From NCBI GenBank assembly GCA_013178155.1, contig JABLXH010000010.1, positions 1-64,000 of the forward strand: a DNA stretch of 64,000 nt. The letters are read 5' to 3'. Under the pieces are notes generated by a model that saw only the letters and a list, made by a program, of their open reading frames with translations, was not told where the DNA came from and made no database searches. This document shows positions 56,320 through 58,445 of this stretch, one piece after another. The stretch is from Armatimonadota bacterium. GTDB lineage: Bacteria > Armatimonadota > Zipacnadia > Zipacnadales > UBA11051. Both the position numbers and the translations under genes were made by a program. Position 1 is the first letter of the stretch. Each line of letters begins with the position of its first letter.

Positions 56320-57069
56320 ATGGGAACTTCCAGTGCGCAGCGCTCCCCCGCGACACCGGAGTGGGAGCGCGTGCGAGAGCTCTATCGTGAGGGCGAAGCG
56401 AACCCGGGAGTCATAGCTTCCCGGGTCGCGTCCGCCTTGGATGCCCGCACCCGGGCCGAGATGGCTGGCCCGGGGGTAGCAACCTGTCTGTCCTCGCTGC
56501 TGCGGGGCTCACGTCGGGTGGCTGAGGCCGGTCTGCCAGCCATCTGGCAAAGCCAGCCGGCGGCCCAGGGCCCGCCGGTTCTGCGGTTGGCCCAGGCCCT
56601 GCGGCAGGAGGCCGAACAGCGCATTGCCCGCAAGGGCTTGGCGTCGCGACCGACAGACCTGGCCCTGAACGCCCTGGGAACGAGCGCCATGGAAGCCGCT
56701 GCGGGCGGCGCACCCGGTGTGCTGGGTCTGAGCGAACCCGAGACAGCGGCCAACTTCGGAGCCTACGCCCGCGAAGGGCGGCTGGGCGATTTGTCCCTGT
56801 GCTTCCTTTCCCACGACTTTGACCACCTGTTCCGCTATTTCGTGAACCGCGACCTCAGTGACTTTATCGGCAGTCCCGCTCTACCCACGGTGGCCCATGG
56901 CTCGCGCTTGCGCGACGCCGTCGCGTTGCACTGCCGGCAACTGGTCCGGCAGGTGCCGGTCGCGGCTCTGGCCCCGCTCCTGGAACAGGCGGCAGCCGAG
57001 GACGCTGACGAGACGCAGGAGCAATTGCAGCAGGTGTTACGGGAGTTGACGGCCGAGGGATTGCGGTAG
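56320..57069 (+). CDS. QatB-like protein (candidate), N-terminus MGTSS
   Basis: MGTSSAQRSPATPEWERVRELYREGEANPGVIASRVASALDARTR...; immediately upstream of a QatC-like gene. Confidence 0.5.
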   Translation: MGTSSAQRSPATPEWERVRELYREGEANPGVIASRVASALDARTRAEMAGPGVATCLSSLLRGSRRVAEAGLPAIWQSQPAAQGPPVLRLAQALRQEAEQRIARKGLASRPTDLALNALGTSAMEAAAGGAPGVLGLSEPETAANFGAYAREGRLGDLSLCFLSHDFDHLFRYFVNRDLSDFIGSPALPTVAHGSRLRDAVALHCRQLVRQVPVAALAPLLEQAAAEDADETQEQLQQVLRELTAEGLR

Positions 57070-57095
57070 ATAACTGCCGCGGGAGGGTAAGCCGC

Positions 57096-58445
57096 GTGCC
57101 GGTCCATGTGGTCACCAACAACGGGCCAGACCCGCTGCCCGCCGCCGCGTGCGGGGCGGACCTGTGCCTGCGCTGGGAGGGTCCGGGGCGCAATGCGCTG
57201 CGCAACCTGGCGCCGCTGACGGCCCTGCTGGCCGCCGAACCGCCGCCGCTGGCCGCCGACCTCCTGGACATCGCGACCGCCGTCTACCTGGCCGACATCG
57301 GGGTGCTCCGCGGGCGCAACGAGGACTGGGTGCGCAACCTGGACCTCACCATCGCGGTACGGGAGCCGAGCTTCTGGCGGGAGCATGCCGGTGACCTGAG
57401 CCATCTCCTCTATGTTCTGACGCGGGATGGCATCAGCTTCAATTTCCAACTCGCCAGCGGATCCGGCACTGCACACGCCGCGACAGCTATCGCCCGGCCC
57501 TTCAGCGCCGACTGCGTCTCCCTGTTGTCGGGTGGCCTGGACTCGCTGGCGGGTGCCGTCATGCTGTTGCGGACCGGACGGCGCCCGCTGCTGGTGGCAC
57601 ATCAGTCTGGCAATCCGACGGTGCGCGCGGCGCAAAACGACGTCCTGGCGATGCTGGAACGTCTGGGGGGGGGACAGTTTGCCTTCGCGGGGACCCAGGT
57701 CAGCGCCAGCGGCCGCTCCGCCTCCGCCCTGCCGTTCCCGGCCCCCGGGGCGCGAGAGCCCTCGCAGCGCTCGCGGTCGCTGTTGTACCTCGCCCTGGCG
57801 GTGTTCGCAGCCAGCACCCAGGGCCTGCGCGAGGTCTACTGCTTCGAGAACGGCCTGCTCACCGTGGCCTTGCCTCTTTCCAGCGCTCGCGTCGGAGGAC
57901 TGTCCACTCGCAGCACCCATCCGCGCGTTATCGCCCTGGCGAACCGTCTGTGTCAGGCGGCCGATCTGGGCTGCGAGATACTGAATCCCTTCACCTACCA
58001 GACGAAAGCTGAACTCATCCGCGACATCCTGCGCCCGGCGCTCGGGCCCCTGGAGATCCAGAAGACCGTGAGCTGCTGGGCGGCGGGCCGGCGCTCGCGG
58101 CAGTGTGGGGGATGCGTGGCCTGTCTCGTCCGGCGCTTCGCCATGCTGGCGGCTGGCCTGCCGGATGAGGCCTACGAAGTGGATGTCCTGAGACACCCCG
58201 CCCGATATGCGGGCACCGAGGCCTACACGAACCTCGTGGACCTCCTGGGCCAGTGCGCCGAGTTCCTGCGGCGCGACGATCTGGAGCTGCTGGCACTGTG
58301 GCCCGAGCTTCTGGACCTGCAAGCCGCGGCCGTCTCCCTCACCGACGTGCTGGCAATGTACCGGCGTTACGCCGCCGAAGTGCAGGGCGTCGTGGAGGCC
58401 CACTTCCCCGAGGCCGCGGCCCTCTTGCATTCCGCAGACCGGTAG
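57096..58445 (+). CDS. QueC-like PP-loop protein resembling defence-associated QatC
   Basis: SLLSGGLDSLAGAVMLL (PP-loop SGGxDS); Zn site C-x9-C-x2-C-x2-C (CWAAGRRSRQCGGCVAC); N-terminal ADLLDIATAVYLADIG...DWVRNLDLTIAVREPSFW extension. Confidence 0.78.
   Translation: MPVHVVTNNGPDPLPAAACGADLCLRWEGPGRNALRNLAPLTALLAAEPPPLAADLLDIATAVYLADIGVLRGRNEDWVRNLDLTIAVREPSFWREHAGDLSHLLYVLTRDGISFNFQLASGSGTAHAATAIARPFSADCVSLLSGGLDSLAGAVMLLRTGRRPLLVAHQSGNPTVRAAQNDVLAMLERLGGGQFAFAGTQVSASGRSASALPFPAPGAREPSQRSRSLLYLALAVFAASTQGLREVYCFENGLLTVALPLSSARVGGLSTRSTHPRVIALANRLCQAADLGCEILNPFTYQTKAELIRDILRPALGPLEIQKTVSCWAAGRRSRQCGGCVACLVRRFAMLAAGLPDEAYEVDVLRHPARYAGTEAYTNLVDLLGQCAEFLRRDDLELLALWPELLDLQAAAVSLTDVLAMYRRYAAEVQGVVEAHFPEAAALLHSADR

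Follow-up and report, generated by a model that had tools for sequence, protein, structure and literature searches.

A QatC-family enzyme and a QatB-like partner form a vertically inherited gene pair in the Zipacnadia (WS1)

Introduction

What does a pair of genes resembling qatB and qatC do where neither qatA nor qatD lies beside it? This question is raised by 64,000 nucleotides of contig JABLXH010000010.1 (assembly GCA_013178155.1), from a bacterium of the order Zipacnadales in the phylum Armatimonadota; we call this whole stretch the window. Two genes in the window, which we term B and C, lie on the same strand, with B upstream and 26 nucleotides between them. A preliminary description proposed that they are either a minimal protein-modification module for defence or a reduced variant of the four-gene Qat anti-phage system. 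The features that it started from (two open reading frames with this gap, B's MGTSS start, and C's SGGLDSLAGAV string and C-x9-C-x2-C-x2-C site) were all confirmed from the open reading frames. Because dozens of genomes keep the two frames side by side, the pairing is far beyond chance. We favor, as rather probable, the reading that B and C together make up a protein-modification module that is related to QatB-QatC, that represents a separate branch of QatC enzymes with its own family of B proteins, and that is core and vertically inherited.

C is a QatC-family enzyme

C matches the QueC domain in Pfam, the QatC model in PADLOC (E = 7e-60), and the QatC model in NCBIfam (E = 5e-65; its 219.8 bits are below that model's equivalog cut-off of 280). 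A profile built from 41 homologs of C matched the solved QatC chains 9vlk and 9zee with E-values of 8e-63 and 5e-59, versus 0.0015 for Cap9. The AlphaFold model of C has a mean predicted local distance difference test score (pLDDT) of 87.6, and it matched the QatC chains from crystal structures of QatB-QatC (9y02_B and 9y01_B; E = 2e-20) with template modeling (TM) scores of 0.70 and 0.73. This match covers most of the length of C and includes both the N- and C-terminal extensions of QatC. Against Cap9 and QueC from Bacillus subtilis, the query-normalised TM scores were 0.30 and 0.32, which are low because both of these proteins lack the extensions. The preliminary description had seen a QueC-type enzyme with an extra N-terminal domain, and both the fold and the profile comparisons place it in the QatC family, with Cap9 and QueC far weaker.

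The QatC family corresponds to cluster 2 of PMC13329287, whose signature comprises SGGxDS, D/R/W motifs, RxRxxxF/Y, ExG, HP, PxxxxTK, CGxCxxRR, and a pair of threonines in place of Tyr/Asp. All of these are present in C, except that the second threonine is conservatively replaced by serine (as in the WS1 order) and that the first two cysteines of the zinc motif are 9 residues apart, versus about 19 in QatC. The two threonines of QatC, T278 and T280, replace the Tyr and Asp that bind 7-carboxy-7-deazaguanine (CDG) (PMC13279940). They align with T271 and S273 of C; T271 is invariant in the 41 homologs, and position 273 is serine in 40 of the 41. The loop R265-P276, which contains these residues, is the same length as in QatC and is conserved in the 41 homologs and across the QatC-type groups. 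With few exceptions, D55, D67, R72, R80, SGGxDS, RxR, ENG, STRSTHP, PxxxxTK, and the four cysteines are kept in both the WS1 and the QatABCD enzymes. C is therefore a QatC-family enzyme.

B belongs to a new family of QatB-like partners

The protein encoded by B opens with MGTSSAQRSPATPEW. An in-frame GTG at 56233 is an alternative start, but B's relatives conserve the MGTS start instead: nearly all of the 58 homologs that we found begin this way. In 48 aligned homologs, G2, T3, S4, R8, S9, T12, and W15 are invariant. The first 22 or so residues are the most conserved part of the protein, and none of 20,000 sets of 15 columns drawn at random matched residues 2-16 in conservation. The tail has the MGTS...P.W pattern of QatB, as the preliminary description had recognized. 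The AlphaFold model of B (pLDDT 94) is all-helical, with twelve helices; residues 1-5 are disordered and the first helix spans residues 13-23.

Beyond the tail, B had no match in Pfam (above the cut-off), PADLOC, NCBIfam, or the sequences in PDB, and the QatB models of PADLOC and NCBIfam did not match any of the 48 homologs. When we used hhalign to compare B to a profile of 36 canonical QatB proteins, the probability was 17–19%; a related type of B reached 43%, and reversed profiles gave less than 1%. These values are suggestive, not proof, of a relationship that may be real. Two QatABCD-type operons, at loci L109 and L204, encode B proteins with intermediate starts (MGTSRSLSTPKGKKW and MGTSQSHNLKSSPNW). 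By hhalign, B is a clear homolog of the B proteins from two unnamed kinds of locus: MGH-type pairs (99.0% probability over 212 columns) and X-B-C-Y operons (98.2%). What B and QatB clearly have in common is their place in the operon and the tail. B represents a new partner family that is distinct from QatB and QatB-like.

In one family, B ends in an S24 (LexA-like) peptidase domain, which suggests that B is cleaved or regulated under the control of stress. The domain was identified by Pfam at L082:4787-6115 (E = 1.8e-13) and judged from length or sequence at L072:4016-5383 and in genomes G016, G020, and G023.

Table 1. Coordinates of B, C, and their conserved elements in the window.
Feature	Position	Strand	Description
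Gene B	56320..57069	+	Open reading frame with ATG start, 249 amino acids; all-helical QatB-like partner, presumed substrate
N-terminal tail of B, residues 1-22 (MGTSSAQRSPATPEWERVRELY)	56320..56385	+	Presumed modification site is Gly2, after removal of Met
Gene C	57096..58445	+	Open reading frame with GTG start, 449 amino acids; QatC-family PP-loop ATP-pyrophosphatase
SGGLDS motif of C, residues 145-150	57528..57545	+	Binds ATP pyrophosphate; invariant in 41 homologs and in all QatC-type groups compared
Loop R265-P276 of C (RVGGLSTRSTHP)	57888..57923	+	Equivalent of the QatB-contacting/active-site loop of QatC; aligned with 9vlk/9zee
Zinc site of C, C327-x9-CGGC-x2-C343	58074..58124	+	Cys 327, 337, 340, and 343, invariant in 41 homologs

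The pair is a core part of Zipacnadia genomes

We found C in 34 of 41 genomes of the order (including the window's own) and either B or C in 37 of them. Of the 19 genomes with completeness of 90% or more and contamination of 5% or less, 18 contain the pair, usually as a single copy. All five genomes of the class from outside the order contain C as well. Across the rest of the phylum, just 10 of 246 genomes had a strong match to C (E below 1e-20); the remaining matches resemble ordinary PP-loop proteins or QueC.

A tree of C from 29 genomes recovered all five families as clades and, within families, repeated the branching of RpoB. The deeper branches are weak in both trees, and they differ. The pair also has a fixed site in each family that we checked. 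In one family it adjoins dnaA, dnaN, and recF-like genes (8 distinct contigs once duplicates were set aside), in a second a GNAT-like gene, and in a third an HslU/ClpX-like gene. (The names DnaN, RecF, GNAT, and HslU were read from the sequences and are not model matches.) QatA, QatD, and the X and Y proteins are absent from the flanks of every WS1 locus that we searched. Phage records contained no close relative of the pair, with weak partial matches only in two Listeria phages, and no viral contig with B was confirmed. B and C are a vertically inherited core gene pair of the Zipacnadia/WS1 class at fixed sites, and not a mobile defence island.

Two genomes of the order have, besides the core pair, a second and diverged QatC-like gene in an open frame of about 650 amino acids (G011:C96:6768-7736 and G031:C42:62511-63497).

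Neither a housekeeping QueC nor a reduced Qat operon

Given the QueC domain in C, we considered whether it could be the housekeeping QueC of queuosine synthesis, which the preliminary description had named as an outcome that would undo its proposal. But the same genome encodes a separate canonical QueC (E = 1e-54) that adjoins QueD, and for this reason we reject C as the housekeeping enzyme. Also, C lacks the Tyr/Asp residues that recognize the nucleobase and has the extensions of QatC, and QatC from E. coli is unable to replace QueC (PMC13329287). We give this explanation next to no chance. A second candidate is a qatABCD operon from which qatA and qatD have been lost. That C is a relative of QatC and that B has an MGTS tail would fit, as would the report that defence against some phages does not require A or D (PMC13279940). 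However, when 51 QatC-type enzymes and QueC were placed in one tree, the QatABCD enzymes (support of 95/81), the MGH-type enzymes (100/98), the X-B-C-Y enzymes (100/100), and the enzymes of the WS1 order (99/100) form separate clades, and the WS1 enzymes are not nested within the QatABCD clade. (Because QueC is a very distant outgroup, the root of this tree is uncertain and the ancestral form cannot be named.) Nor is B recognizable as a QatB. No KAP-family ATPase (QatA) or TatD-family nuclease (QatD) is encoded near the window pair; the genome's sole KAP match and its TatD matches are on other contigs. Since neither QatA nor QatD occurs at this locus, as the preliminary description had noted, or at any of the related WS1 loci searched, and since C is in its own clade, the pair is not a Qat operon with lost genes. 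The reduced-variant half of the original proposal is thus rejected, and we consider it very unlikely. The pair falls outside the Qat system as defined, and it probably works like the Qat core.

Proposed mechanism and substrate

The most likely reaction is an ATP-dependent modification of B at Gly2 by C. Removal of Met1 would leave Gly2 free at the end of the conserved tail, which would reach into the active site of C so that Gly2 enters it. C would bind ATP via the SGGxDS loop and activate a carboxylate substrate; the amine of Gly2 would then attack the activated carboxylate, joining the substrate to the N-terminus of B. We infer both the formation of a B-C complex and the reaction at Gly2 from QatBC and Cap9. 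Specifically, QatC requires QatB, and QatB requires its N-terminal glycine motif, for defence (PMC13279940), and Cap9 is a QueC-type enzyme that modifies the N-terminal glycine of its partner CdnD in type IV CBASS (cyclic-oligonucleotide-based anti-phage signaling system; PMC13279940, PMC11996544). The direct support from this locus and its relatives is that C is in the QatC family, that it is paired with B, that the tail is conserved, that the pair is vertically inherited, and that QatA and QatD are absent.

Several observations weigh against this proposal. No one has yet reconstituted the chemistry of QatC, canonical Qat included (PMC13279940), which places the reaction at Gly2 at two removes from experiment. 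The tail that precedes the first helix of B is about 12 residues long, versus 30–90 disordered residues in QatB (PMC13279940). A Foldseek search with the model of B gave no match at E = 0.001, and QatB was not among the 50 matches listed, with QatB-QatC entries in the library. Judging from these comparisons, B does not appear demonstrably homologous to canonical QatB outside of the tail. The preliminary description's likening of B to QatB is thus partly undercut: it stands for the tail, and neither Foldseek nor the low profile probability extends it to the rest of the protein.

Which carboxylate might be the substrate? The window genome also has a weak QueE-like match, which together with its QueC and QueD means that CDG may be made there. 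Two other members of the class, G043 (98% complete, 2% contamination) and G044 (90% complete, 3% contamination), contain C and tRNA-guanine transglycosylase but no QueD and no strong QueC, and for QueE there were just short matches, of the radical-SAM kind, to a single model. (In G044, the C gene is cut by the contig edge, so this genome has the pair or at least C. G043 corresponds by position to locus L095, and the catalytic motifs are retained in its C apart from two substitutions, E in place of D55 and L in place of W94.) Because these members of the class keep C without QueD, a strong QueC, or a convincing QueE, the substrate may not be CDG, which agrees with the altered substrate site. 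Other families of QueE, or uptake of CDG, could also account for this pattern. Outside the order, 11 of 29 QatC-carrying genomes (including L095) lack a QueC match better than about 1e-8; this count considers QueC only, in genomes whose completeness is not given.

Defence or core function

We see about an even chance that the pair would provide resident immunity to phage or stress. More narrowly, the pair could be a working anti-phage system that has become fixed in the class. It would then be a QatBC-type system in minimal form, sensing infection and acting via modified B. QatBC alone protects against phage lambda (PMC13279940), which lends experimental backing to the idea of a minimal protein-modification module in the preliminary description. 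MGH-type B-C pairs adjoin serine-recombinase genes in the two inspected loci, one X-B-C-Y operon lies beside a sacsin-domain gene, and the S24/LexA-like domain on B in one family hints at stress control. On the other hand, near-universal and usually single-copy presence, with vertical inheritance at fixed sites, is unusual for defence genes; the nine genes scanned around the window pair gave no hit to the defence models of PADLOC; phage records hold no close relative; and no viral contig was confirmed to carry B. The description of the pair as a defence module is weakened by its inheritance, which is not patchy or mobile, and still plausible. We put the fixed anti-phage system at just short of even.

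A non-immune core function is a serious possibility, if not one that we would bet on. One form of it, which we hold more tentatively, is that the pair is a protein-modification pathway of the whole class. Its fixed sites would fit, and the substrate would be something other than CDG, given that some members of the class lack the genes for making CDG. Alternatively, C might act on a small molecule (a deazapurine or another carboxylate) with B as a scaffold or regulator, so that no protein is modified. Most enzymes of the QueC superfamily act on small molecules (PMC13329287), and the modification of QatB has never been shown directly. The conserved tail of B, with its invariant Gly2, points instead to modification of B, and we consider the small-molecule explanation unlikely.

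Gene neighborhood

As the preliminary description stated, the pair is flanked by minus-strand genes for an oxidoreductase (of the GFO/IDH/MocA type, upstream) and for URO-D proteins (downstream). The downstream genes, at 58508-61232 on the minus strand, follow one another directly: two belong to the URO-D family, and one encodes a B12-binding protein of the corrinoid type. Together they resemble a cluster for a corrinoid-dependent methyltransferase. dnaA is about 5 kb upstream of the pair, on the minus strand. At 52664-54952 on the plus strand is a gene whose large product has an M60 (enhancin-like) peptidase domain as well as an M60-like N-terminal domain. We did not find a CD-NTase among the neighbors that we scanned with Pfam and PADLOC.

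Comparison with known and unnamed systems

The new elements here are a QatC-family pair without QatA and QatD, a new family of B proteins, and inheritance as core genes, which make this a notable variant. In the literature that we searched, no QatBC pair of this kind, free of QatA and QatD, is described. As qatA and qatD are near only about a third of the genes in the QatC cluster (PMC13329287), others have come across such loci and left them undescribed. Which substrate QatC uses and what purpose the modification of QatB serves are both stated to be open (PMC13279940). A two-gene version found in nature, with a compact and well-predicted partner and no QatA or QatD, is a simpler system for studying the chemistry of QatC, and the members of the class that have C but no strong QueC, no QueD, and no clear QueE provide a direct comparative argument for a substrate other than CDG. 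If the pair is truly core, this would suggest that proteins from a defence family can hold a permanent cellular role, or that an immune module can become fixed in a lineage.

Among known systems, the pair most closely parallels the QatBC core, which is the minimal functional unit of Qat (PMC13279940). They share the B-C gene order, the QatC fold with both extensions, the catalytic signature, the zinc site, and the MGTS...P.W start of B. They differ in that the window locus lacks QatA and QatD, that the fold and sequence of B are not recognizably those of QatB and its tail is short, that Thr280 of QatC is Ser273 in C, that the zinc spacing is shorter, and that C is in a separate clade and the pair is core and vertically inherited. 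Cap9-CdnD also combines a QueC-type enzyme with a partner whose N-terminal glycine is the target, as we presume for B and C. However, Cap9 consists of a minimal QueC domain in which the Tyr/Asp nucleobase site is retained, whereas C has large extensions and Thr/Ser at this site, and no CD-NTase is encoded beside B and C. Canonical QueC has the same PP-loop fold and Cys4 zinc site, but it has no N- or C-terminal extension and no B partner and it has the Tyr/Asp site, while C has the STRSTHP loop and extra domains.

QatC-like proteins from Nealsonbacteria (L101:9161-11248 and L105) have an N-terminal extension of about 280 residues and no recognized separate B, and could be fusions with a partner domain. 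In these proteins, one zinc Cys position aligns with Asp.

MGH-type pairs (L103-L145), for which we found no system name, have the same two-gene order, a homologous B, and the same catalytic signature in C. In contrast to the window pair, their B proteins start with MGHxRLGxLP, their C proteins are mostly about 610–720 amino acids with an extra C-terminal region, and they are scattered over several phyla. At L126:9127-12016, L136:9193-11830, and other loci of this type, B is about 262 amino acids (MGHxRLGxLPRTxxW). X-B-C-Y operons were found in four phyla (L096:8357-11775, L098:8381-11859, L099:5837-9256, and L102:8353-11784) and are possibly an undescribed Qat-like system; in L102, the operon with the sacsin-domain neighbor, X and Y have no match in Pfam. 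Their B proteins start with MGTSVxxxSPxTxxW and are homologous to B of the window, but they are only about 187 amino acids long, and the pair is flanked by the additional proteins X (about 314 amino acids) and Y (about 205 amino acids).
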